In this document: positions 1,157-57,782 of the stretch, one piece after another
Position numbering within the stretch: position 1 is the stretch's first letter
Layout: every line of letters starts with the position of its first letter
Source of the DNA: Persicirhabdus sediminis
GTDB taxonomy: Bacteria; Verrucomicrobiota; Verrucomicrobiia; Verrucomicrobiales; Akkermansiaceae
DNA: 64,000 nt
Reading direction: 5' to 3'
Assembly (NCBI RefSeq): GCF_016595495.1
Contig: NZ_JAENIM010000009.1
Location: 1-64,000, forward strand
Translations under genes and position numbers: made by a program
The notes under the pieces: generated by a model
Seen by the model: only the letters and a program-made list of their open reading frames with translations
Database searches by the model: none
What the model was told of the DNA's origin: nothing

Positions 1157-1667
1157 GCAAAGCTGGTTGTTCCTTTTCTAGCCAGTGATGCCCGACGCTC
1201 ACCCCATCACATCTACCTGCTCACGCAGCACCGAGCTGCATGATGCCTTTGTCACTATCGCACCAGCAGATGTGGTTTTGCATCGCTGGCGTGGCTTGTT
1301 TGGAGTGGAAGCTGCAGCCGTAGAAATGTGTATGTTTCCGCATTGGACAACAAACCTATTACACTCTTTTGCCAGATTGATAGGCTGTAGGGTGGTAGTA
1401 GAGAGAATGGTGAAAGCATAACTAACTATCAGCTAGTTATGCATTGACTCATTAGATATTTCTAGCAATCTGAATTAGATTCACTGGACACTGAAAACTT
1501 TCCACTACTAACAAAGTGCACAGCCCGCCACCATCATGCCCCCTATCAATCTGACTAAAAATGCCGCCCGCCAGCTCACAAAGATAATGATCATAGCCTC
1601 GGCTAATCTCGCGGAAAATGTTAAATCACACAACCATTACCACACACCGATAATGTTAGCCTCGAAA
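1157..1667. other. Spacer with stem-loop and attC-like boxes
   Basis: A 78-codon frame at 1185-1421 is open here but has no family resemblance and looks like chance. The spacer contains a perfect 9-bp stem-loop (GCATAACTA 1416-1424, TAGTTATGC 1434-1442). It also has a CTAACAAAG motif at 1508-1516 and GTTAAAT at 1620-1626, an attC-like pair. From 1409 to about 1650 it is similar to 6177-6370, upstream of a different gene. Confidence 0.5.
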
Positions 1668-2387
1668 ATGACGCACCTCACCTCTATCCTCTTTCTCGCA
1701 ATCGCTATGAATGCACACGCTGACTTGGAGTCCGGTATCACCGCATACAACAAGGGAGACTACGACACGGCACGGAAAGAATTCAACGCCGCGGCAGATT
1801 CCAAGGACCCTATGGGATTACATCTCCTGGCCTCCCTTTACTACCAAGGTCACGGCGTAGAGAAGGACTTGGGTCGAGCCGTCGTATTGTTCACAGAGGC
1901 TGCGAAGAAGGGTTACAAGCATTCCCAAGCGAACCTCGGCCTGATGTATCAAAAGGGAGACGGCGTGAAGAAGGATATAGAGAAAGCCATTTCCTACTAT
2001 ACTGCAGCAGGTAAGCAGGGTGATCTTCAATCAGCTCTAAACTTGGGGCAGATCTATCGCACTGGGAACGGAGTTGCCCCTGATCAAGCTAAGGCAGCTG
2101 CTTACTACAAGTTTGCGGCAGAACGTGGATACATTCCCGCCGTGAACGAATACGGCCTTCTTTTTGCACAGGGTCATGGGGTCGAGTTGGATTACGTCGA
2201 AGCGTTCGGTTGGGTGTCTTTTGCCGCTAAGACTGGAGATCCCCAAGCCACCAAGAACCTCAATCAACTGAAGGAGATTCTCGGAGATAAGGTTGGGGAG
2301 GCAGAGAATCGCGCCAAGGAGATCGAAGCTGCAATCAAAAAACAAGACGGTGCAGGACAACCGACTAGCCGCTTCGAGTCCAAATAA
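1668..2387 (+). CDS. Secreted Sel1-repeat (SLR) protein
   Basis: A TPR-like Sel1-repeat protein, usually a protein-protein interaction scaffold in the periplasm or outside the cell. The ORF opens at 1536. The ATG at 1668 is preferred because it begins a clean signal peptide (MTHLTSILFLAIAMNAHA) and lies 42 nt after an attC-like GTTAAAT box; the mature part starts near ADLESG. About four to five Sel1 units follow, each with the pattern A..LG.mY..G.GV.kD...A..yy..Aa..G, e.g. ANLGLMYQKGDGVKKD and LNLGQIYRTGNGVAPD. The C-terminal 35 residues are charged and probably helical. The gene stands alone among unrelated accessory genes. Product family is sure; partner unknown. Confidence 0.85.
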   Translation: MTHLTSILFLAIAMNAHADLESGITAYNKGDYDTARKEFNAAADSKDPMGLHLLASLYYQGHGVEKDLGRAVVLFTEAAKKGYKHSQANLGLMYQKGDGVKKDIEKAISYYTAAGKQGDLQSALNLGQIYRTGNGVAPDQAKAAAYYKFAAERGYIPAVNEYGLLFAQGHGVELDYVEAFGWVSFAAKTGDPQATKNLNQLKEILGDKVGEAENRAKEIEAAIKKQDGAGQPTSRFESK

Positions 2388-3973: not shown

Positions 3974-5974
3974 ATGAGCAGAACAAACCTATTAATGGCC
4001 CTTCTTGGCATTGTGACGACCGCACATGCCAGCACGTTGACCTTTGAAGGTACAGGAACCAATATTCCAATACCCACCGACTGGGGAAGCGCTATTGCAG
4101 CCAGCGGAACGGGCTACAATATCGCCAATGGCGCCACACCCAACATCGCTCTCACTTGGTCGGTTGGCGCCGACGGAACTAAGGAGGAAAGATGGGATTT
4201 CTACAATGATTCCGAATGGAGCGGCGTTGCCCAGCTGAATGACTTCGAGACCGGTATCAGCTACTATCTCACTTTCACTCCCGATGCCGAATACGGCGTC
4301 GTGGTCGATTCGTTCGTCTTTCATGACTATGCTGGATGGCAAGGAGGCAACGACTTTTCATGGAACCTCTACCAGGACGCGGCTGGCGGTGAGTTGATTG
4401 CATCGGGCTCTGCTACTACGACCGACGGAGAGAGGCTCACGATCAACACCGGCATGGAAACTAACTATGCGGGCCCAGTGGTGCTTGAAATCATCAACAA
4501 CGAAACCAACGGCAAGCAAGGATCTGACCAGGCACTCGACGATATCACCTTCCGTCAGGTTAACCTCTCTGACCCCTCCGAGCCCACCGAGCCAGCGCTG
4601 CCCAACATTCCCTTCTCCGGCGAAGTCAAGCTGCTCGCGCTCAACACCTGGCATGCAGGCTCCAAGGTAACTGACGGTATCGACAAGATTGCCGACGTCG
4701 TCATGGGAACTGGTGCTGACATTGTCGCCTTTTCTGAGACCTGGCCGAACGATGACTTCCCCGCCACCCTGCTGGCCTCGCTCTCAGGCAAAGGGGCCTC
4801 CAACTACGAGGGGTGGCATGCCGGTGGTGATGTTTCACTGATCAGCCGCTTTCCCATTCTGGAAACTACAACGGTCTATGATGCGACGTCGAATAATAGA
4901 GGCTCCATCATCGCCTATCGGCTTCAGCTGCCTTCGGGCCACCCGCTTACCGTTTGCGTAGCGCACCTAGACTGGAAATGGTATGCCCTCTACCTACCGC
5001 GTGGCTATAACGGCGGAAACCCTAACTGGTCGATGATTGATTCAGACCCAGCTGACGGCATTCCCGACTATGTCAGCGATGTTACCGCTATTCTCGAGTA
5101 CGACCTGAATTCCAAGCGCGGCGACGCCATTGCGGCATTCATCGCCTACGCCGAGACTTTAACCGCCGCAGGTGAAGACGTCATCCTAGCGGGCGACTTT
5201 AACGACAGCTCGCACCTCGACTGGGTCGATTCAACCCGGAATATGTTTGGCCATAACAACTTGGTGATTCCATGGAACGGCAGCTTGAACCTGGCGACAA
5301 ACGGATGGGTGGACAGCTATCGTGAGATCCACCCCAACCCAGCTACCCATCCGGGCATCACATGGCCTTCAGACGCCTTCGAGAAAACCTCGACCAGCTG
5401 GACCCCTGCCAGCGACGAGCGCGACCGCATTGACTTTATCTATTACAATCAGCAAAACATCGCCGCACAGACTGCCGCAGTGGTCGGCTCGCGCGCCTAC
5501 TACGTGCTCAACGAGAAAACCGATATTGTTTCGGACGACACCTTCCTGTTGGAAGATCAAGATTGGCCCAGCGACCACAAAGGTGTGCTGACCACCTTCA
5601 ATTTTGCCGACTCCGACTCGGACGGCATGCCTGATTACTGGGAAATCCGCTACGGCCTAGACCCCAACGACCCTTCCGACGCGTTGCTTGATTCCGATTT
5701 TGACGGTGTCAGCAACCTCGATGAATATCGTTACCGCACAGACCCCACCAATGCAGCCTCGTTCTTCAAGGCAGAAGTTACTATGGACAATGCGGCCAGC
5801 AGCATGGACATCCAGTGGGACAGCAACAATGAATTGCTATACCGCATCAGCAGATCCACGAACCTCGAAGACTGGACCGTTTTGCAGGATAACATTGCCC
5901 CTACCCCGCCACAGAATACGTTCAGCTGCCCCACTAACAACGCCATGGAGTTCTTCAGGCTGGACACTCATTAA
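3974..5974 (+). CDS. Secreted endonuclease/exonuclease/phosphatase (EEP) family protein
   Basis: A 666-residue exported hydrolase. A signal peptide (MSRTNLLMALLGIVTTAHAS) precedes a beta-rich domain (about 25-205). The EEP (DNase I-like) domain (about 215-545) keeps its motifs: LNTW, FSETW, AHLDW, AGDFND and the terminal SDH. An acidic spacer follows, with thrombospondin type-3-like calcium loops (DSDSDGMPDYWE and DSDFDGVSNLDEY). The last 70 residues (LLYRISRSTNLEDWTVL...EFFRLD) form the cell-surface or secretion-associated tail often seen in verrucomicrobial exported proteins. It could act on nucleic acid, phospholipid or a phosphoester; the motifs do not decide. Its base composition looks GC-richer than its neighbours and CTAG is scarcer in it, suggesting a different history. 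Confidence 0.85.
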   Translation: MSRTNLLMALLGIVTTAHASTLTFEGTGTNIPIPTDWGSAIAASGTGYNIANGATPNIALTWSVGADGTKEERWDFYNDSEWSGVAQLNDFETGISYYLTFTPDAEYGVVVDSFVFHDYAGWQGGNDFSWNLYQDAAGGELIASGSATTTDGERLTINTGMETNYAGPVVLEIINNETNGKQGSDQALDDITFRQVNLSDPSEPTEPALPNIPFSGEVKLLALNTWHAGSKVTDGIDKIADVVMGTGADIVAFSETWPNDDFPATLLASLSGKGASNYEGWHAGGDVSLISRFPILETTTVYDATSNNRGSIIAYRLQLPSGHPLTVCVAHLDWKWYALYLPRGYNGGNPNWSMIDSDPADGIPDYVSDVTAILEYDLNSKRGDAIAAFIAYAETLTAAGEDVILAGDFNDSSHLDWVDSTRNMFGHNNLVIPWNGSLNLATNGWVDSYREIHPNPATHPGITWPSDAFEKTSTSWTPASDERDRIDFIYYNQQNIAAQTAAVVGSRAYYVLNEKTDIVSDDTFLLEDQDWPSDHKGVLTTFNFADSDSDGMPDYWEIRYGLDPNDPSDALLDSDFDGVSNLDEYRYRTDPTNAASFFKAEVTMDNAASSMDIQWDSNNELLYRISRSTNLEDWTVLQDNIAPTPPQNTFSCPTNNAMEFFRLDTH

Positions 5975-6017
5975 ACCATCACCACTTCTATCCTGAGCTT
6001 AACTAATGGCTCATCGA

Positions 6018-6050
6018 CTCTGCCTGGGAATATTCCCAGGCAGAATTTAT
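6018..6050 (+). terminator. Palindromic terminator after the EEP gene
   Basis: A perfect 24-bp palindrome (arm CTGCCTGGGAAT and its complement) lies about 45 bp after the nuclease stop and is followed by an A/T-rich run ending in TTTATTT. It is a plausible rho-independent terminator reading rightward. Confidence 0.6.
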
Positions 6051-6176
6051 TTCTAGCGGCAACCATGACGCAGTAGCTAAGCGCTCCAGAGCCCCGCTGA
6101 GCCAGCAAAAGGTGAACCGCTCCACTGATGACTAACATGATCACTTTGATAAACTCCATGACGCGCTTGAAGCGGC

Positions 6177-7390: not shown

Positions 7391-7460
7391 CTAGAAAAAC
7401 AACTAGCCTAAGAATTCGTTACTAAGAATAGCACCTGTCTACGGTACAGCTCGGGCCATG

Positions 7461-8280
7461 GTCGCCACGATGTGGCTGCTCTATTCTCTGCTTGCCAACC
7501 TTGGGCGTTGCCCAAGGCTTCGAGAGGTCGCCACTCCGTGGCTAGCTGGAGGTGATATTTCCCCAAGGCTGGCCGTTCAGTCGTAGGGTCGCCACGATGT
7601 GGCTGCTCTATTCTCTGCTAGCCAACCTTGGGCGTTGCCCAAGGCTTCGAAAGGTCGCCACTCCGTGGCTAGCTGGAGGTGATATTTCCCCAAGGCAGGC
7701 CGTTCAGGCGTATGGTCGCCACGATGTGGCTGCTCTATTCGCTGCTTACCGACCTTGGGCGTTGCCCAAGGCTTCGAAAGGTCGCCACTCCGTGGCTAGT
7801 TGGAGAATATAGCCCCTCACGGCTGGCTGGAGAGGATATTCCCCGTAGAAGATGATATTTCCCCACCGCTAGCTAGATACGTCGGGCAAGAAATAGACGG
7901 CTAGTTCCAGCTGGCTGGCATGGTTCGGTTTGACCGCTCAGTCGATCATTTCTTCCTCGGCTAGCTGGAGAAATATTTCCCCCACGGCTAGCGGTTCAGA
8001 CGAAAGGTCGCCACGATGTGGCTGCTCTATTCGCTGCTTACCGACCTTGGGCGTTGCCCAAGGCTTCGAAAGGCCGCCACTCCGTGGCTGGCTGGAGAAT
8101 ATAGCCCCTCACGGCTGGCTGGAGAGGATATTCCCCGTAGAAGATGATATTTCCCCACCGCTAGCTAGATACGTCGGGCAAGAAATAGACGGCTAGTTCC
8201 AGCTGGCTGGACAGGCTCGCTTTTGACCGCCCTGTCGATCATTTCTTCAAAGGCTAGCTGGAGAAATATTTCCCCACACG
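7461..8280. repeat. Nested tandem repeat block with hairpins
   Basis: Four copies of a core start with GTCGCCACGATGTGGC at 7461, 7588, 7715 and 8007. The first two units are 127 bp each. The third is 292 bp, with about 165 bp of extra sequence, and the fourth copies that long form nearly base for base to about 8270. Every core carries a perfect hairpin, CCTTGGGC-gtt-GCCCAAGG (7499-7517, 7626-7644, 7753-7771, 8045-8063), and two small GCCAC/GTGGC hairpins. The string ATATTTCCCC recurs through the block. Short frames running through it are by-products of the repeats. Confidence 0.85.
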
Positions 8281-8469
8281 CTAGCTGGATACGCCAGCGA
8301 GTAACAGACGGCTGACTCTAGCTCGCTTTTGACCGCTCGGTAGATAATTCCCACCTCGGCTAGCAAGTCAGCTCTTTGGCCAGCTACTTGCATCACCAGC
8401 GGTGCTGTGGCTGATACGCGGGCAAGAAAAAAACCAGCGAACCTTGCGGTTGCTGGGTCGATCATCAAG

Positions 8470-8816: not shown

Positions 8817-8865
8817 CCAGTACGATGAAACTTTTGCGTCTCGATATCTATTAGTAAACCGCGAG

Positions 8866-9180
8866 ACACCTGACACCTGACACCTGACACCTGACACCTG
8901 ACACCTGACACCTGACACCTGACAACTGACAACTGACAACTGACAACTGACAACTGACAACTGACAACTGACAACTGAAAACTGAAAACTGAAAACTGAA
9001 AACTGAAAACTGAAAAACTGAAAACTGAAAACTGAAAACTGAAAAACTGAAAACTGAAAAACTGAAAACTGAAAACTGAAAAACTGAAAACTGAAAAACT
9101 GAAAACTGAAAAACTGAAAACTGAAAAACTGAAAACTGACAACTGACAACTGACAACTGACAACTGAAAACTGAAAACTA
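8866..9180. repeat. Heptanucleotide tandem array in homogenised blocks
   Basis: The array runs for 315 bp in blocks: eight ACACCTG units (8866-8921), eight ACAACTG units (8922-8977), then about twenty AAAACTG units mixed with 8-bp AAAAACTG units (8978-9138), four ACAACTG units (9139-9166) and two AAAACT(G/A) units. Long minus-strand frames rich in SVVSCQL and FSFQF are by-products of the repeat and should not be called genes. Confidence 0.95.
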
Positions 9181-18932: not shown

Positions 18933-21900
18933 ATGAGGACAAACTTAGCGTCTAGACCATACCTAATGCAGAGCGAAATGGGATTCGCCCTCATTGCAAC
19001 GATTGCGGTCATGGCGCTCATGGCTGTCACCGCCTTAGCCATGTTGAGTTTGAGCACCGTGGAAGTTCGCTCATCCAACCACGGCGATGCCATGGCTGAA
19101 GCAAAAGCGAATGCACGAATGGCATTGATGATTGCCATCGGTGAACTCCAAAAAGCAGCTGGGCCAGATACTAGAGTCACAGCCGAAGGAAACATCGACG
19201 ACCAAGCCGACGAAGGCAAAGGTCACTGGATGGGCGTGTGGAGCTCCGCTAAAGAAACAGGTAGCCAAGACGCGAAGGATCAGGGTGAGTTCATCAGCTG
19301 GATGGTTTCACACCCACCCAATACGCCACTGGCATACTCACATATCAGCGACCAAAGTTTTCTCGATGACACTTTTGCCAATGGTCTAGCCAACTCAGTT
19401 ACGCTTGTGGGTGCAGGCAGCGCCAACATCAATGACAAACCTGGAGATAAGGTCATCGCTCCGAAAGTGGAAATCATCGACTCATCCACTGAAAACCGAA
19501 CAGGTCATTACGCCTACTGGATCGGCGACGAGGGCGTCAAAGCGCGCATCGATCTACAAAGCACGGAAGGAAGAAATGATCGGCTGACAAACATGGGCAC
19601 ACAACGCTCAGCCTTTGAGGTCATGACCGATATCAAAGAGTCAAAATCCGATCTTTCCGTTGATGACCCTCAAATAAGTAAACTCTTAAGCACTCAATCC
19701 ATCGCCCACATGTCCAACAGAGAAGCCGGCATCAGCCACTTCCACGATATCACCTCGCACTCGATGGGTCTGCAAACAACCACCCGCGACGCCAACACCA
19801 AGTATGGCTCAGGAACAACTACGGTGATGGAAAATGGTGGGCTTAAAATTGACCTCTCATTGTTATTTGAAAAATCAGATAATGATTTTGAAGCCCTGAC
19901 GCCAGCAGATTACGCAGCCTTCCAATACGACGATGCTCCCTTTGGCACCTCAACTCTACGCGACGTGGGGCTATTATTCACCGTTGACGGTGTCACTGAG
20001 GACAATTCCACCGAAGGGATGATCTATGGCCCCACCATGGACATGCTCAGAACCCATTACCGCTTGTACAAAGACGTCGAAAATAAAGAATCCCAGCCAA
20101 CACTCAAGCAGGCATTTCCCTTCTACCCGAATGCTACTGAGTTTGATAATAACTACGAACTGACCGCCTACATCAATGCCGAGCGCCTAGGTCGTCGCTT
20201 CCTAGATACAAATACTCACCGGGTTTCAGAGAAGAAGGCGGAAGATGGCAATTATGCTGTGACCTTCGATGTCACGCGCAATACCAAACCTAATGTCGCG
20301 CCCTATTTAAATAGGGTGCTCTATTATTTTTCCGTAATCACTGAAAAAACTAAAAGAACTGACGGCTCTGGCGGTTCTGATACCCATAACGACACGGATG
20401 ATGAGTGTTATCGCATTAGCAAAGTAGTCATCACCCCTATTGTTATCCTCCACAACCCCTACGATATCTCGATTAACTGTCCTGACATGGCCTACCGTCC
20501 ACACTTTCAGGAAAGCCAACTGCTTGCGCCTCAAGGCGGGTCTATAAAATTACATGAAGAAAAGCTCGTCACTAACGGCAATACCGAAGACGCTGTGTTT
20601 AAAATCCCAGCCTGTAGTTACAAACCTGGTGAAATCAAATTATTCATGCCCAACGACCTGAAGGCATTGGAAAATGAGCACGAGCTCGCGGAACTCTCAA
20701 CAGGCGTAAGCCTTGGTTCTGGTGCCTTTTTTGAAATTAAAAAACCAGATGACGTAGCAGAAGGTGACAAAAGTAGCACCTACATGGAAACGCAAAATAT
20801 TGACGCGAATGATCAATTCAAGCTCTTTGCCTACCACACGAAACATAACATCCAGTCATTAGAGATTTACCAAGGGGGCAATCTCAACAGAATTTACACA
20901 TCCAGAGCGGTCAACCTAGAAAGTCACTCCACGGGCGGCTTATCAAGCTTACGAAACGGTGCGCCAGAACGTAGTGCTCTAGATTACGCAACAGCTGAGA
21001 ACGAGCCGCTGCAAGCTACAAACTACTACGACTTTTACACCAAACCATATAATTATGAATTACCTCGTGATTATATGGACTCTGAGAGTTCAGCGGCAGC
21101 TGTTTACGGTTTCCCAACTTTTGTCTTCAACAACCCGATGTGCGTTTCGGATTCAGGTATAGATAACAAAGCATCTGGTAACATTACAAGACAAGCGTCC
21201 CCTGGAGCCTCTGTCTATTCACCCTACAAGAGCACCCATGCAGATTATAGCGGCAGCGCCGCGAGACAAGAACAGATAACCGCCCTGCTCTCTCCTGATG
21301 GCAAAACTACGACTTGGGGAAGTGGCTATAACGATGAAGGTCAGACACATATCTCCGTGCTCAGCATTCCAACAGCACCGCTGGTATCTATCGGCTCACT
21401 GCAACATGCTAACTTATTTGATCAGGGAAACCATCCAGCCTTGCTCATTGGTAACTCGTTTCCCAATTTACAGCTGACAGACCTAGCCATTACATTTGAG
21501 GAAATAAGCCGCGTAGACAACAATGGCTACCGCAAATGCCATATCCCTTTTGACTCCACCTTCCACACTAATGAAGCCATTTGGGATTATTATTATTTTT
21601 CATCCATAGCGCCTAGATCGGATCAAGGTGCATACGATGATTCATCAGCTGATGCTGAAGCCGACATTCAACAAGTGATATCCGACTGGTTAGACGGCAC
21701 CCAACCATTAGCCAATGAGCGCATTGTTTTTCTCGCAAATGGAGAAAGCATAGACGATGTCAAATTAGCCCTCGCAGAGCCAGAAGCCTATCAATTTGCC
21801 TCCGCTTATACAGGATTACTGGGAGCGTTTAACGTAAACTCCACCTCCGTTGAGGCGTGGAAAGCGATGCTAGCTGGCTACCGAGGCCAATCCTTAGACA

Positions 21901-22673
21901 TTAACCCTAACGGCAAAGTTAAGACTCATGACAATGATACGGACTCAGCCCTACCGCGCACACTCTTACCAAACAAAGCAGGCATCTCTGATCCGGAGCC
22001 ATTTGACGAGGATACCTGGCTAGCCTTTGCCAAACTCAGTGATGACGATATTCAAGAACTTGCTGAGGCCATTGTCACTGAGCTCAAAGAACGCATGGAG
22101 GAAAATGCTCAGAGGTTCACCGCCGCTAAGGGGTCATCTAAAGTGCCCTTCCTGAGTCTAGCTGACTTTGTTAACCGCATGCCTGATTCATCTGAGCCCG
22201 AATATCAAACATCTGGCCTGCTACAAGGTGCCATTCACAAAGCCAAGATCAACGAGACCTTGGAAACAGATTCAGCGTCTAGAACAACAAATGCATTTAC
22301 CACCGCAGCCGTCACCCCTAACGCTAGAGATTACGAAGTTGAGTTACCTGAAGACTTCCCAGCCTTAGACGCAGCATCCAGCCCCAGCTACATTCTGCAG
22401 TCAGACATCCTGCAAGCTATCGGATCTAGCATTAGCGCGCGCTCAGATACATTCAAAATTAGAGCCTATGGCGACAGCCTAGACAGCAAAGGCAATATTG
22501 TCGCCGAGGCTTGGTGCGAAGCAGTTGTCCAGCGTACGCCAGTTCCCGTCACCCCCGTGGGAACCACGGGGATTGCCAAGTGGACACCTGATACATCAAA
22601 TTCAACGCTGCCTAACTACGGAAGAAAAATGAAAGTCGTCGCTTTCAAATGGCTTAACAAAAACGAAATCTAA
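18933..22673 (+). CDS. Giant pilin-like exported protein, copy 1
   Basis: A 1246-residue protein with a type IV-prepilin-like N-terminus. A polar leader ends in SEMG, then comes FALIATIAVMALMAVTALAM and LSLSTVEVRSSNHGDAMAEAKANARMALMIAIGELQKAAGPDTRVTAEG. The residue at mature position 5 is not Glu, so assembly into a normal pilus is uncertain. The remainder is a long, acidic, beta-rich surface region with repeated TRNTKPN, VVTPIVILHNPYDISI and RAYGDS blocks. It resembles the long pilin-like proteins found in many copies in Verrucomicrobiota (compare the Verru_Chthon cassette protein A group), from memory and unverified. A secreted partner gene starts 12 bp downstream, and a second full copy of the pair follows at 24452. 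Confidence 0.75.
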   Translation: MRTNLASRPYLMQSEMGFALIATIAVMALMAVTALAMLSLSTVEVRSSNHGDAMAEAKANARMALMIAIGELQKAAGPDTRVTAEGNIDDQADEGKGHWMGVWSSAKETGSQDAKDQGEFISWMVSHPPNTPLAYSHISDQSFLDDTFANGLANSVTLVGAGSANINDKPGDKVIAPKVEIIDSSTENRTGHYAYWIGDEGVKARIDLQSTEGRNDRLTNMGTQRSAFEVMTDIKESKSDLSVDDPQISKLLSTQSIAHMSNREAGISHFHDITSHSMGLQTTTRDANTKYGSGTTTVMENGGLKIDLSLLFEKSDNDFEALTPADYAAFQYDDAPFGTSTLRDVGLLFTVDGVTEDNSTEGMIYGPTMDMLRTHYRLYKDVENKESQPTLKQAFPFYPNATEFDNNYELTAYINAERLGRRFLDTNTHRVSEKKAEDGNYAVTFDVTRNTKPNVAPYLNRVLYYFSVITEKTKRTDGSGGSDTHNDTDDECYRISKVVITPIVILHNPYDISINCPDMAYRPHFQESQLLAPQGGSIKLHEEKLVTNGNTEDAVFKIPACSYKPGEIKLFMPNDLKALENEHELAELSTGVSLGSGAFFEIKKPDDVAEGDKSSTYMETQNIDANDQFKLFAYHTKHNIQSLEIYQGGNLNRIYTSRAVNLESHSTGGLSSLRNGAPERSALDYATAENEPLQATNYYDFYTKPYNYELPRDYMDSESSAAAVYGFPTFVFNNPMCVSDSGIDNKASGNITRQASPGASVYSPYKSTHADYSGSAARQEQITALLSPDGKTTTWGSGYNDEGQTHISVLSIPTAPLVSIGSLQHANLFDQGNHPALLIGNSFPNLQLTDLAITFEEISRVDNNGYRKCHIPFDSTFHTNEAIWDYYYFSSIAPRSDQGAYDDSSADAEADIQQVISDWLDGTQPLANERIVFLANGESIDDVKLALAEPEAYQFASAYTGLLGAFNVNSTSVEAWKAMLAGYRGQSLDINPNGKVKTHDNDTDSALPRTLLPNKAGISDPEPFDEDTWLAFAKLSDDDIQELAEAIVTELKERMEENAQRFTAAKGSSKVPFLSLADFVNRMPDSSEPEYQTSGLLQGAIHKAKINETLETDSASRTTNAFTTAAVTPNARDYEVELPEDFPALDAASSPSYILQSDILQAIGSSISARSDTFKIRAYGDSLDSKGNIVAEAWCEAVVQRTPVPVTPVGTTGIAKWTPDTSNSTLPNYGRKMKVVAFKWLNKNEI

Positions 22674-24451: not shown

Positions 24452-27400
24452 ATGAACAAACATTTCCCATGTAAAATAAAATGCGATGTAAGCAGGCAAA
24501 TTAAATCGCCCCAAAAAGCCGGTTTTGCCCTCATCGCCACCATCGCAGTGATGGCCCTAATGGCTGTTACCGCGCTCGCCATGCTCAGCCTGAGCACGGT
24601 TGAAGTACGCTCATCTAACCATGGTGATGCGATGTCAGAAGCTAGAGCCAACGCCCGCATGGCCCTCATGATCGCCATCGGCGAACTACAAAAAGCCGCC
24701 GGCCCAGACACTAGGGTCACTGCAGAAGGCGATATCGACGACTCACCAGGCCAAGGCAAAAACCACTGGATGGGCGTGTGGAGCTCAGCTGACGAAACCA
24801 CCGGAACCACTCCAAAGAAAGCCGGCGAATTTATCGGCTGGATGGTTTCTAAACCAAGCTCAACTACAGCAGACTACACTAACATTAACGGCCAAAATCT
24901 AATTGATAGCTCGCTCTCAAATGGACTGCCTAATTATGTAACCTTAGTTGGCGACGGCAGCGCGGACATTTCTACAAATCCTGAAGACGAGGTAATCGTT
25001 CCTAAAGTTGAAATCGTAGATACTACCAATGATATATCCACGGGCCATTACGCCTACTGGATAGGAGATGAAGGTGTCAAAGCTAGAATCGACCTACAGA
25101 CATCTGACGACAGAGATGATCGATTAGCAACTATGGGCACTCAGCGCTCAGCTTTTGAAGTAATGACTGAAATCAAAGACTCTAAACAAAATCTTGAAGT
25201 CGATGATCCAAAAATAGTCAAACTCATTAGCTCTCAATCAGTCGCCCACGTAAGTAGTCAGGAAGTCGGAAAGTCGCACTTCCATGACATTTCATCTCAT
25301 TCTCTGGGAATTGCAACTACTACTCGCGACCCTAGCAGCCAATACGGTACCGGCAAGACGGCCGTTGTCGACAATGGAGGATTAAAAATCGACCTCTCCT
25401 TATTATTCGAAAAGTCAGATAGTGATTTTGAAGATTTAGAACCTGATAATTATACAGCGTATAATTATGAAAATGCTCCCTTTGGCTCAGCAGGAACACG
25501 AGATGTTGGGCTTATCTTCACAGTTGATAATGTATCTAATGGCAATTCTACAGAAGGGCTCATATACGGTCCTACAATGGACATGCTTAGAACCTACTAT
25601 CGACTATACAAAGATGTAGAAAATAAAGATTCCTCGCCAACTTTAAGCTCAGCATTCCCATTCTACCCTAATGCTTCAGAATATAATAACGACCTTGCTG
25701 ATACGGGATATATGAATGCAGATCGTATTGGCTATAGAAACCAAGACACCAATACACATAAGATATCAAAAAAATCTAATACAAGCTATGAAGTCACCCG
25801 GAACACAAAACCAAATGTCAGCCCATACATTAACCGCGTTCTCTATTACTTTTCAGTCATAACAGAGCCAACATCCACACCACCTGACCAAGCTGGAGCT
25901 TGGTCGCGTATCAGCAAGGTGGTCGTCACCCCAATCGTTATTCTCCACAATCCCTATGATGTTTCCATCGACTGTCCAGACATGGCTTATAGCCCTGGAT
26001 TTGGTAGTAGTAGAATGTACATACTACTAGAAGACCCTAATCCTAACGACCTACACACAAAATTTAAAGTTGATGGCACTTTGGGAAAATTGGTGAAAAA
26101 AAATAAATCCTTAGACTTGGACAATGACAAATACGTTACTAATGGAAACTTAGGTGAAGCAACTTTAAAGATTCCGGCAATTAAGTACAAACCTGGTGAA
26201 ATCAAACTTTTCATTCCTAATGGCCTGAAGGCTCTTCAAAATGAACATGAGTTGGTAGAGCTATCTTCAGGTGCAAATATTGACGGCGGCTTCTACTACG
26301 AATTAAAACCAGCAAGTCGAAGCTACGCTAACCTAATGGCGACAGACCTACCTGGTCCGGGCGAAGCTGGATACAATGAAGATAAATACGGCAACTGGGA
26401 CGAAAACGATGCCTTTAATCACTCTCAGTACATTCGGGATGATTTTGCTCTACAACTCTATGGCTGTTATGGTGGTTACCTCATTCAACGTTTAGATATG
26501 TATAATGGGTCTGATCGTGATCGGGTCTACACTTCGAGAGGTGTTTGGTTAGAGGGTCGTTCTACAGGAAGCGTTGTAAAATCACTAGCGGATTGTTGTA
26601 AAAACGCGCCTAAAAGGTTTGCCATAGATTACGAGACGGGTGAAGACGAAGTTGGACAACCTACTAACTATTACGATTTTTATACTAAACCCTTTGAATA
26701 CGAAATTCCTGCTAACTACACAGCTAGTACCACTTCTTCTGAGACAGCATATGGCTTCCCTACTTACGTATTGAATAATCCATTATGTGTATCTGACTGC
26801 GGAGTAGATATCAGAAATAGCGCAGATGTAGAAATACAAGCGTCCCCAGGTTCATCAGCTTACTCACCATATAAAAGTTCTCATGCTGATTACTGCGAAT
26901 TAGATGAACTACCCAATCGGCTAATGAACATCCTCGCTCCACAAGGAGGCACTACGACTTGGGGCGGAGGAATGAACGATGAAGGTCAAACTACTGTCAC
27001 AGCATTAAGTATTCCTACAGCACCTCTAATATCAATAGGTTCGCTGCAACATGCCAATCTCTATGACCAAGGAAACCAGCCAGCTTTAGTCATTGGAAAT
27101 TCATTTCCTAACCTTCATATTGGCAGCATTGCTAACACCTTCGAAGAGAGAGAGTATACTGACAATAAAGGATACCTACATAATTATGTTCCCTTCGATG
27201 CAGCCTTCCATACTAACGAAGCCATCTGGGATTATTATTTCTTCTCGTCCATATCACCAAAATCAACGGACTCTTCCTATAACAGTTCATCTGCAAAAAG
27301 TGATGAGGATATAGAGCTGGCCATTTCTGATTGGATTGACGGTAACAGTCCCATAGCTAATGAACGCATTACTTTCATTTCTAACGGCGAAACATCAAGT

Positions 27401-28309
27401 GATATTAAAACAGCTCTGAACGATCCCGATGCATATAAATACGCATCTGCATATATGGGGATCAAAGGTAGCTTCAATATCAACTCAACTTCTGTTGAGG
27501 CATGGAAAGCAATTCTATCAGGCTACCGCGGGCAAACGATTTCTATTAACCCTGAAGGAAATATTAATGACCTCGACGTTGCGGAGACCTCCTTGATCCC
27601 GAGGAACCACCTCTCATTACAAGAAGGAATCGAAAGCCCATCTCCAACAGACGACGAAGCATGGGTAGCATTTTCACAACTTTCTGATGATAAGATTACA
27701 GAGCTTGCTGAAGCTATTGTTTCTGAAATTAAGGACGTGATGAAGGAGAATGCCTCTAGAAACAAAGGATCTAGCAGCTCGTCTAGCGTTCCTATATTAA
27801 GCCTAGCTGACTTCGTTAACCGTATGCCTGACTCCTCTAGACCTGAATACCAAACATGCGGACTGCTTCAGAGAGCGCTCAGGAAAGCGGGAACAAATGA
27901 CAGCTTAAATAGAAAATCTGAAGGGCGCACTAAAAGCTTTACGACTGAATCAGTAACCTCAAATGCACGTAAGTATGTCGTTAAACTTCCAGAAGAATTC
28001 CCTGAACTCGATGCCGCATCAAGCTCCAGCTTTATTCTCCAATCTGATATCCTCCAAGCCATAGGTTCACACATTTCAGCTCGCTCCGACACATTCAAAA
28101 TCAGGGCTTATGGTGACTCTGTTGATCGTAACGGTACTATAATCGCTGAAGCATGGTGTGAAGCTATCATTCAAAGAACACCAGCACCTGTTGTTCCTCT
28201 TGCTACCACAGGGCTAGGCAAATGGACTCCTGACACATCTAATGCCACTAACTACGGTAGAAAAATGAACGTCATATCATTCAAATGGCTGTCTAGAAAC
28301 GAAATCTAA
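24452..28309 (+). CDS. Giant pilin-like exported protein, copy 2
   Basis: A 1285-residue paralogue of the protein at 18933. The prepilin-like hydrophobic segment (QKAG then FALIATIAVMALMAVTALAM) and the next 70 residues are nearly identical between the copies; the rest is homologous throughout but with many replacements and several insertions, e.g. around 26000-26120 and 26300-26450. The near-identity of the N-terminus against a diverged body suggests either strong constraint for export or gene conversion. Synonymous positions in the body look AT-richer than in copy 1. The C-terminus keeps IRAYGDS, EAWCEA(I/V)(I/V)QRTPAPV and GRKMNVISFKWLSRNEI. Its secreted partner starts 11 bp downstream. 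Confidence 0.75.
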   Translation: MNKHFPCKIKCDVSRQIKSPQKAGFALIATIAVMALMAVTALAMLSLSTVEVRSSNHGDAMSEARANARMALMIAIGELQKAAGPDTRVTAEGDIDDSPGQGKNHWMGVWSSADETTGTTPKKAGEFIGWMVSKPSSTTADYTNINGQNLIDSSLSNGLPNYVTLVGDGSADISTNPEDEVIVPKVEIVDTTNDISTGHYAYWIGDEGVKARIDLQTSDDRDDRLATMGTQRSAFEVMTEIKDSKQNLEVDDPKIVKLISSQSVAHVSSQEVGKSHFHDISSHSLGIATTTRDPSSQYGTGKTAVVDNGGLKIDLSLLFEKSDSDFEDLEPDNYTAYNYENAPFGSAGTRDVGLIFTVDNVSNGNSTEGLIYGPTMDMLRTYYRLYKDVENKDSSPTLSSAFPFYPNASEYNNDLADTGYMNADRIGYRNQDTNTHKISKKSNTSYEVTRNTKPNVSPYINRVLYYFSVITEPTSTPPDQAGAWSRISKVVVTPIVILHNPYDVSIDCPDMAYSPGFGSSRMYILLEDPNPNDLHTKFKVDGTLGKLVKKNKSLDLDNDKYVTNGNLGEATLKIPAIKYKPGEIKLFIPNGLKALQNEHELVELSSGANIDGGFYYELKPASRSYANLMATDLPGPGEAGYNEDKYGNWDENDAFNHSQYIRDDFALQLYGCYGGYLIQRLDMYNGSDRDRVYTSRGVWLEGRSTGSVVKSLADCCKNAPKRFAIDYETGEDEVGQPTNYYDFYTKPFEYEIPANYTASTTSSETAYGFPTYVLNNPLCVSDCGVDIRNSADVEIQASPGSSAYSPYKSSHADYCELDELPNRLMNILAPQGGTTTWGGGMNDEGQTTVTALSIPTAPLISIGSLQHANLYDQGNQPALVIGNSFPNLHIGSIANTFEEREYTDNKGYLHNYVPFDAAFHTNEAIWDYYFFSSISPKSTDSSYNSSSAKSDEDIELAISDWIDGNSPIANERITFISNGETSSDIKTALNDPDAYKYASAYMGIKGSFNINSTSVEAWKAILSGYRGQTISINPEGNINDLDVAETSLIPRNHLSLQEGIESPSPTDDEAWVAFSQLSDDKITELAEAIVSEIKDVMKENASRNKGSSSSSSVPILSLADFVNRMPDSSRPEYQTCGLLQRALRKAGTNDSLNRKSEGRTKSFTTESVTSNARKYVVKLPEEFPELDAASSSSFILQSDILQAIGSHISARSDTFKIRAYGDSVDRNGTIIAEAWCEAIIQRTPAPVVPLATTGLGKWTPDTSNATNYGRKMNVISFKWLSRNEI

Positions 28310-56367: not shown

Positions 56368-56392
56368 AAAAAAGGCCCAGCTATGCTGGGCC
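56368..56392 (-). terminator. Terminator downstream of the Cys-repeat membrane protein
   Basis: On the minus strand GGCCCAGC-ata-GCTGGGCC is followed by TTTTTT, about 100 bp after the stop codon of the gene at 56493. Confidence 0.85.
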
Positions 56393-56492
56393 TGATGGAT
56401 AATTTGGTTCTTTAGAAAGCAGATTTCAGCAAACTAGGTCTTTGCCTAGCAGGAAAAAACGCCCTCCCTAGTTAATAAAGCACTATAGAGGT

Positions 56493-57173
56493 TTACTCAG
56501 CTTCTACCGCAGCAGGCTGTGCGCTTGCATCACCAGCTTCCACTCCAGCAGCCGGAAGCTCAGCAGTAGCATTCTCACCGCAGCTGGACTTCTTCTCACC
56601 ACAGCTAGACTTTTTCTCGCCACAGCTGAACTTTTTCTCGCCACAGCTGGACTTTTTCTCGCCACAGCTGGACTTTTTCTCACCGCAGCTGGACTTCTTC
56701 TCACCACAGCTGGACTTCTTCTCACCACAGCTGGACTTCTTCTCGCCGCAGCTGGACTTTTTCTCACCACAGCTAGATTTCCCTTCACCGCAAGTACTGC
56801 GATCCGGGCAAGTGGCACAGCTACCGCCACTACAACCACCACTGCCAGCTGGAATCTCAGCGAGCGGACTCAATGAGGCAGCAGTCAGAATCGCCACAGG
56901 AACTAGCAAACCCAACCACATTTTTGCTGAGCTTTTTTTACAGGCGTAGTTAACGAGCCATTTGCGATGCAGCCACAGGTGCCAAACCACAAGGAAGCAG
57001 AGAACAATCCCTCCCCACAGGTGGATATCCTTCCACATCCCCTTGCCCAATCCCCACAGGCCAACGCTTTTACCAGCTGCGCCGTGTGGAAATTTCCATT
57101 CTAAAATCAAACCTGAAACTGCAATCAACAGCCCAAGTACGTACAAAATATAGTTTAAAACTCGCGCTAACAT
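56493..57173 (-). CDS. Membrane protein with Cys heptapeptide repeats (DUF4405-like)
   Basis: A 226-residue protein. Three membrane helices (about 5-24, 49-69 and 84-103) form a small DUF4405/cytochrome-b561-like core; His residues in DIHLWGGIVLCFLVVWHLWLHRKWLV could coordinate heme. After a Gly/Cys-rich linker (GGCSGGSCATCPDRSTC) come ten tandem heptapeptides CGEKKSS (first CGEGKSS, one CGEKKFS) ending in CGEN, then an Ala/Glu-rich tail. The repeat gives one Cys every seven residues, about eleven in all, on the probable periplasmic side. Metal binding or redox buffering is possible but unproven. I do not know a described protein with this repeat. Confidence 0.75.
   Translation of the reverse strand: MLARVLNYILYVLGLLIAVSGLILEWKFPHGAAGKSVGLWGLGKGMWKDIHLWGGIVLCFLVVWHLWLHRKWLVNYACKKSSAKMWLGLLVPVAILTAASLSPLAEIPAGSGGCSGGSCATCPDRSTCGEGKSSCGEKKSSCGEKKSSCGEKKSSCGEKKSSCGEKKSSCGEKKSSCGEKKFSCGEKKSSCGEKKSSCGENATAELPAAGVEAGDASAQPAAVEAE
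56575..56790 (-). repeat. 21-bp coding tandem repeat (CGEKKSS)
   Basis: Ten copies of a 21-bp unit encode the Cys heptapeptide. Copies differ at synonymous third positions (AAG/AAA, TGC/TGT-type changes), and the few replacements are G for K in the first and F for S in one, so the peptide is under selection and the array is not a very recent expansion. Confidence 0.85.
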
Positions 57174-57276: not shown

Positions 57277-57782
57277 CTACTCACCATCAGTAGCCGATTC
57301 ATCGGCAGAAGACACTTCTTCTACTGGTTTCTCTTCTGCCTTGTCAGCTGCTGGCTCAGCCTTTTCAGGTTCAGGCAACCCCATCACCATCAGCTGCAAC
57401 ATATGCTCACCTTCAGCCAAGTTTAACTGAGGCGCAGTTAATAACATGCACATGACTTGCAAGCCAGAGATCTCCTTCGAAGTAAAGTTAGACATCGCTA
57501 ACAACTCCATCCCTTGAGCTTCAAGTGGCCCCTTAGCTCCTTCCATCATTTCATCGAGAATCTCGACTTCGCCCCAGCTATCACCAAGAAACTCCTTCAG
57601 TTGCTTTTTAATTTCAGCTGGATCTTTCTCCGTAGAATATCCCAAGACTCGCATGCCCATCATTTTGGTATCTACGATCTGTGCCTCGCCCGCAAATGCC
57701 TTTTCAAAATCAGGCACCTCAGCCGCTGAAGCTGCAAGCATCAGTGAACAATAGGCAAAATCATAGCGAGTTTTTTCATCAT
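57277..57782 (-). CDS. Exported acidic protein with apparently frameshifted signal peptide
   Basis: The intact frame runs 57741-57277 (154 residues from MLAASAAEVPDFEKAF), ending in a low-complexity acidic tail (EPEKAEPAADKAEEKPVEEVSSADESATDGE). An ATG pair at 57782/57779 starts a typical signal peptide in another frame that hits a stop after 13 codons. Adding one base in the T4 run (A57757-A57760 on the plus strand) joins the two into MKKLAMIF-AYCSLM-LAASAA, a clean Sec signal with an AxA-type site. Either a base was lost, or the run is read by slippage, or the sequence has an error. The mature domain is not recognised. Confidence 0.6.

Follow-up and report, generated by a model that had tools for sequence, protein, structure and literature searches.

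The window (the whole 64,000-nucleotide stretch of DNA that was analysed) carries on its minus strand an ORF of 226 aa (nt 56493–57173) that encodes a DUF4405 membrane core followed by a Cys-rich tail, as judged from its translation, a Pfam match and a homologue in a second genome, G233. The neighbouring genes, which from a reading of their translations we take to be rpmI/rplT and asnS, are accompanied by an unknown ORF, and no metal or redox gene lies beside the ORF. This context is not conserved in G233. A same-strand ORF of 154 aa without a Pfam match is found upstream (nt 57277–57741), while downstream of the gene there is a terminator-like hairpin of 9 pairs with a T-rich tail (nt 56373–56393, minus strand), which is a consensus match only; four such hairpins were found in the region where 2.2 are expected. 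Elsewhere in the window, two large paralogous proteins with prepilin-like starts (nt 18933–22673 and 24452–28309) each precede one of a pair of similar small exported proteins, and a seven-base GACAACT array (44 copies) together with larger tandem repeats, all apparently noncoding, occupies nt 8865–9179 and nt 7460–8285.

Residues 6–69 of the protein match DUF4405 (PF14358) with an E-value of 1.5e-13 and 51.5 bits, compared to the gathering score of 26.7 bits that sets the threshold for membership. The core (residues 1–107; nt 56853–57173, minus strand) was delimited with an AlphaFold2 model and an alignment of 27 sequences. It has membrane helices at residues 2–27, 44–68 and 82–101, with a short helix at 70–79, and pLDDT values are 82–93 across the core helices; the mean for the whole protein is 63.7, and the tail, including the ten-unit array described below, is predicted to be disordered (pLDDT mostly below 50). 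Two histidines, His51 and His65 (H-x13-H), are invariant across the 27 aligned DUF4405 sequences, and a gap of 13 residues is familiar from the two-heme helices of b-type cytochromes. The DUF4405-like core of three helices with membrane histidines, which an earlier note on this DNA had proposed, is borne out by the family match, the modelled helices and the invariant His pair. There is no CxxCH motif, the mark of a c-type cytochrome, in the 226 residues. Neither the model nor the profile gave a meaningful match to a solved structure: the fold search with the predicted model returned nothing below E 3, a search that the disordered tail probably hurt. A profile match to a TRPM-like channel (E 0.0028) spans one membrane stretch and was taken as chance. 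The loop between helices 2 and 3 includes the sequence CKKSSAK (residues 78–84, nt 56922–56942), which resembles a repeat unit of the tail minus its Gly-Glu and has a counterpart, CKKSSGK, in G233, although this may be coincidence. A second DUF4405 gene of the same genome, on contig C12, has unremarkable surroundings.

PMC11334425 reports heme b in a purified Oscillospiraceae DUF4405 protein with six helices and four central histidines, and cytochrome-like properties for the DUF4405-like protein FezC, with heme sites modelled across a homodimer. Given that a PF14358 member binds heme b, the earlier description of the window protein as heme-type is well grounded by family membership. The window protein shares its Pfam domain and conserved membrane histidines with the tested cytochrome but is half its size, having three helices and two core histidines rather than six and four. 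The tested protein is also linked to apbE, whereas the window protein lies outside any apbE cluster and has a Cys-repeat tail. The only ApbE gene found in the genome is on another contig (C45), away from the window gene, and a flavinylation-linked reading was set aside. A half-size protein would be better matched by the arrangement modelled for FezC, in which heme sites form by homodimerisation. No Cys-rich tail is described for FezC in the available part of PMC11334425, and a reading of the ORF list at the locus shows no fez-like or transporter-like ORF adjoining the window gene.

Within the tail are ten tandem units of seven residues, 21 bp each (nt 56583–56792, minus strand; from TRF and reading of the ORF), in a frame that continues that of the conserved core. 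The array is real and non-random, TRF giving a period of 21 bp and a copy number of 10.0 at nt 56572–56781, 89% matches and a score of 308. The units run CGEGKSS, six of CGEKKSS, CGEKKFS and two more of CGEKKSS, after which a decayed eleventh unit recognised by reading the ORF, CGENATA (nt 56562–56582, minus strand), opens an Ala/Glu-rich end. Ten CGEKKSS repeats had been counted previously, at nt 56575–56790. The ends of that interval are off by 2–8 bases and the number of units stands, but only eight of the ten are exact, the first and eighth being the exceptions, so that 'ten' was slightly generous. Eleven cysteines spaced every seven residues had also been described, and these run from Cys128 and Cys135 to Cys198, exactly 7 apart, with CGENATA supplying the eleventh; Cys114, Cys119 and Cys122 precede them, making fourteen in the tail. 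The synonymous variation seen earlier between repeats is likewise present, since 15 of the 19 differences from the unit consensus are synonymous (16 of the 19 fall at third codon positions). Third positions make up six of the nine variable columns (hypergeometric p = 0.009, or p = 0.025 when the divergent first unit is left out), and these p-values are only indicative because the units are duplicates of each other and not independent. With so few units, copied from one another, the bias is moderate evidence that the peptide is under selection.

A close homologue is present in one of 289 genomes of the order, G233, where the core is 58% identical. The other 13 genomes of the genus of G233 gave no such homologue, and no further close one was found among 260 genomes of the family. 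The last membrane helix is followed by a Cys motif, C-x4-C-x2-C-x5-C-x6-C (residues 114–135; nt 56769–56834, minus strand; from the G233 alignment), which takes in the first unit, CGEGKSS, plus the Cys of the next. The aligned motifs are GGCSGGSCATCPDRSTCGEGKSSC in the window protein and GGCQSGGCGSCSSKDSCSDSKSSC in G233, and the five cysteines (114, 119, 122, 128 and 135) have identical positions and spacing in both. The G233 tail continues in the same frame as a Cys-rich but irregular sequence, GGCQSGGCGSCSSKDSCSDSKSSCSSGACSSGSC..., without a heptad array, and in both proteins the Cys content of the tail is 16%. Since CSDSKSSC of G233 aligns with the first unit and its following Cys, CGEGKSSC, the array probably grew from this seed unit.

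In the alignment of 27 proteins, 25 have no Cys-rich tail, although one of these (L040), with a C-terminal end of MSCDGNCAECRNPCGK, has four Cys. Distant DUF4405 homologues across the class are 21–34% identical and have short tails rich in Gly, Arg, His or Gln. A strict three-unit CGEKK pattern had no match in the genome_contigs or viral_contigs collections, and a relaxed pattern, CG(E/D)KKxx in three units, matched only the window's own genome among 388 of the phylum and nothing in viral_contigs. A first protein scan of genome_contigs gave no relative and tblastn against plasmids no match. Many weak tail matches in relatives, such as ECGMRNA, proved to be out-of-frame or stop-bearing tandem repeats and were set aside. 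In family profile searches the tail matched no described protein family, and a literature search, within the papers covered, found no Cys tandem repeat described for this phylum, in agreement with the earlier statement that no family with this repeat is known. That note had proposed a search for CGEKKSS-type repeats in other genomes and had named a repeat missing from every homologue as a refutation. The outcome is divided: the exact repeat is absent from all homologues, which is the refuting result, whereas a Cys-rich tail is kept in G233. With the tail Cys-rich but free of heptads in G233 and missing from the others, an older Cys/Ser/Lys tail appears to have expanded into the array in this lineage only, as far as can be judged from a set of genomes that includes a single one of the genus. 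A heptad array maintained as a family trait is unsupported, as it occurs in no other genome searched.

A parallel case was found in an unrelated protein of the same class. A secreted Cys-rich protein of genus g76 carries CGDKKAD heptads in genome G339 only (L062, nt 1456–1764, minus strand), while its orthologues in G381 (L081, nt 5711–6064) and G996 (L099) have irregular Cys-rich middles; all three share the ending PMPKMSCC. The G339 and G381 proteins have no Pfam or NCBIfam match, and the genes flanking both are presumably ymdB-like and hemY-like, from reading the ORFs. The G339 protein resembles the window protein in its seven-residue Cys-Gly-acid-Lys-Lys units and in having orthologues that are Cys-rich without heptads. 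It differs in possessing a signal peptide and no membrane core, and is unrelated outside the repeats. Judged by these comparisons, the conversion of a Cys/Lys/acid-rich exported stretch to a heptad array in one species arose twice. The second expansion suggests a use for Cys/Lys-rich exported stretches in this class, and it lessens the significance of the repeat as a precise design while raising that of its Cys-rich composition.

The side of the membrane on which the tail lies can be predicted from the charge distribution. The loop at residues 69–86, between helices 2 and 3, has a charge of +5, and by the positive-inside rule would be cytoplasmic, placing the tail in the periplasm. In four relatives from the order or class (L033, L034, L066 and L094) the same core is extended after the last helix by a PSCyt1 c-type cytochrome domain (CxxCH), in place of the Cys repeat of the window protein. 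The heme of c-type cytochromes is attached outside the cytoplasm, so these fusions agree with a periplasmic tail. A non-cytoplasmic position, as the earlier note assumed for the Cys array, is favoured on both counts, and the tail position holds a redox module in other DUF4405 members. By eye, L035 and L036 also encode DUF4405-PSCyt1 fusions.

For the Cys array the earlier note had suggested metal capture, a redox wire or a thiol-based surface coat as possible uses. The reading we prefer, although only tentatively, is a b-type cytochrome-like core with a disordered periplasmic thiol tail that binds metal. The three-helix protein would probably form a homodimer in which His51 and His65 build the heme sites, in the manner modelled for FezC. 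The C-terminal tail would be an evolvable thiol module in the periplasm, in which an older Cys/Ser/Lys-rich stretch was lengthened by tandem duplication of CGE(G/K)KSS to reach fourteen Cys. Most likely, the thiols would serve as ligands for a soft or redox metal (copper or iron) near a membrane electron carrier, which would hold either that metal or the thiols in the reduced state, and the exact number of heptads is probably not critical. The c-type domain at the tail position in relatives makes a disordered periplasmic thiol module, serving as a soft-metal ligand or in thiol redox beside a b-type electron carrier, the most likely nature of the tail. Against the preferred reading stand the lack of a metal or redox gene beside the ORF, a context that G233 does not share, and the absence of the heptad from the homologue and of a Cys-rich tail from most aligned proteins; with its patterned charges, the tail might be no more than a flexible tether. 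A more elaborate device, in which a tunable thiol tail gathers periplasmic copper or iron while the core, a b-type heme dimer, keeps the tail reduced and the repeat number sets capacity, is improbable.

The main rival is neutral or near-neutral expansion, whereby a low-complexity tail that matters little beyond keeping frame slipped during replication and gained functionless 21-bp copies. The exact heptad is found in no other genome searched and, apart from the four Cys of L040, the tail is missing from 25 of the 27 aligned homologues. In related genomes, unrelated tandem arrays with 21-bp units are numerous and some contain stops, and the window itself has the long, apparently noncoding arrays mentioned above. 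Slippage of this kind does not readily explain why variation between units is concentrated at synonymous third positions, why Cys is retained in every unit, or why the spacing of the five-Cys motif and the Cys content are the same in G233, and we regard it as possible but unlikely. A thiol redox module, where disulfides in the tail would take electrons from the heme core and hand them to proteins of the periplasm with no metal site, would suit the conserved CxxC (119–122) adjoining the membrane and the c-type cytochrome at this position in relatives. It is decidedly unlikely, as the heptad spacing offers no CxxC and the tail is predicted to be disordered, with no thioredoxin-like fold. Metal binding is preferred to such a relay because a disordered chain with seven-residue spacing lends itself to flexible binding at several sites, C119–C122 being the only CxxC.

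A disordered, charged and regular tail rich in Lys, Glu and Ser might also anchor the protein to the envelope or space it from it, with disulfide cross-links between tails, but only two genomes carry the tail and no cell-wall anchoring domain was found, so that a structural or surface tether is very improbable. A bufferin-like metallophore, in which an MNIO enzyme converts Cys for copper chelation as in the exported Buf_EGKCG/oxazolin proteins (PMC12452194), is scarcely credible: the EGKCG repeats resemble E(G/K)KSSCG in composition and in their repeated order of Glu-Gly/Lys-Lys and Cys-Gly, and a membrane helix is present in some of the Buf_EGKCG proteins too (PMC12452194), but bufferins need MNIO, the window protein lacks both the exact EGKCG motif and a signal-peptide leader, and PF05114 is absent from its own genome and from G233, G339, G381 and G577 in a search that gave matches in control genomes; on this ground a bufferin identity was rejected.

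DUF4405 proteins have only recently been recognised as cytochromes, and few of their periplasmic partners are known. In the window protein and that of G233, a thiol-rich tail stands where other relatives have a c-type heme domain. If the metal-binding reading of this tail is correct, it would link a cytochrome family of wide distribution to metal or thiol chemistry in the periplasm. The array also shows clearly how a low-complexity tail that looks functional can grow by tandem duplication, as seen twice independently in one class.
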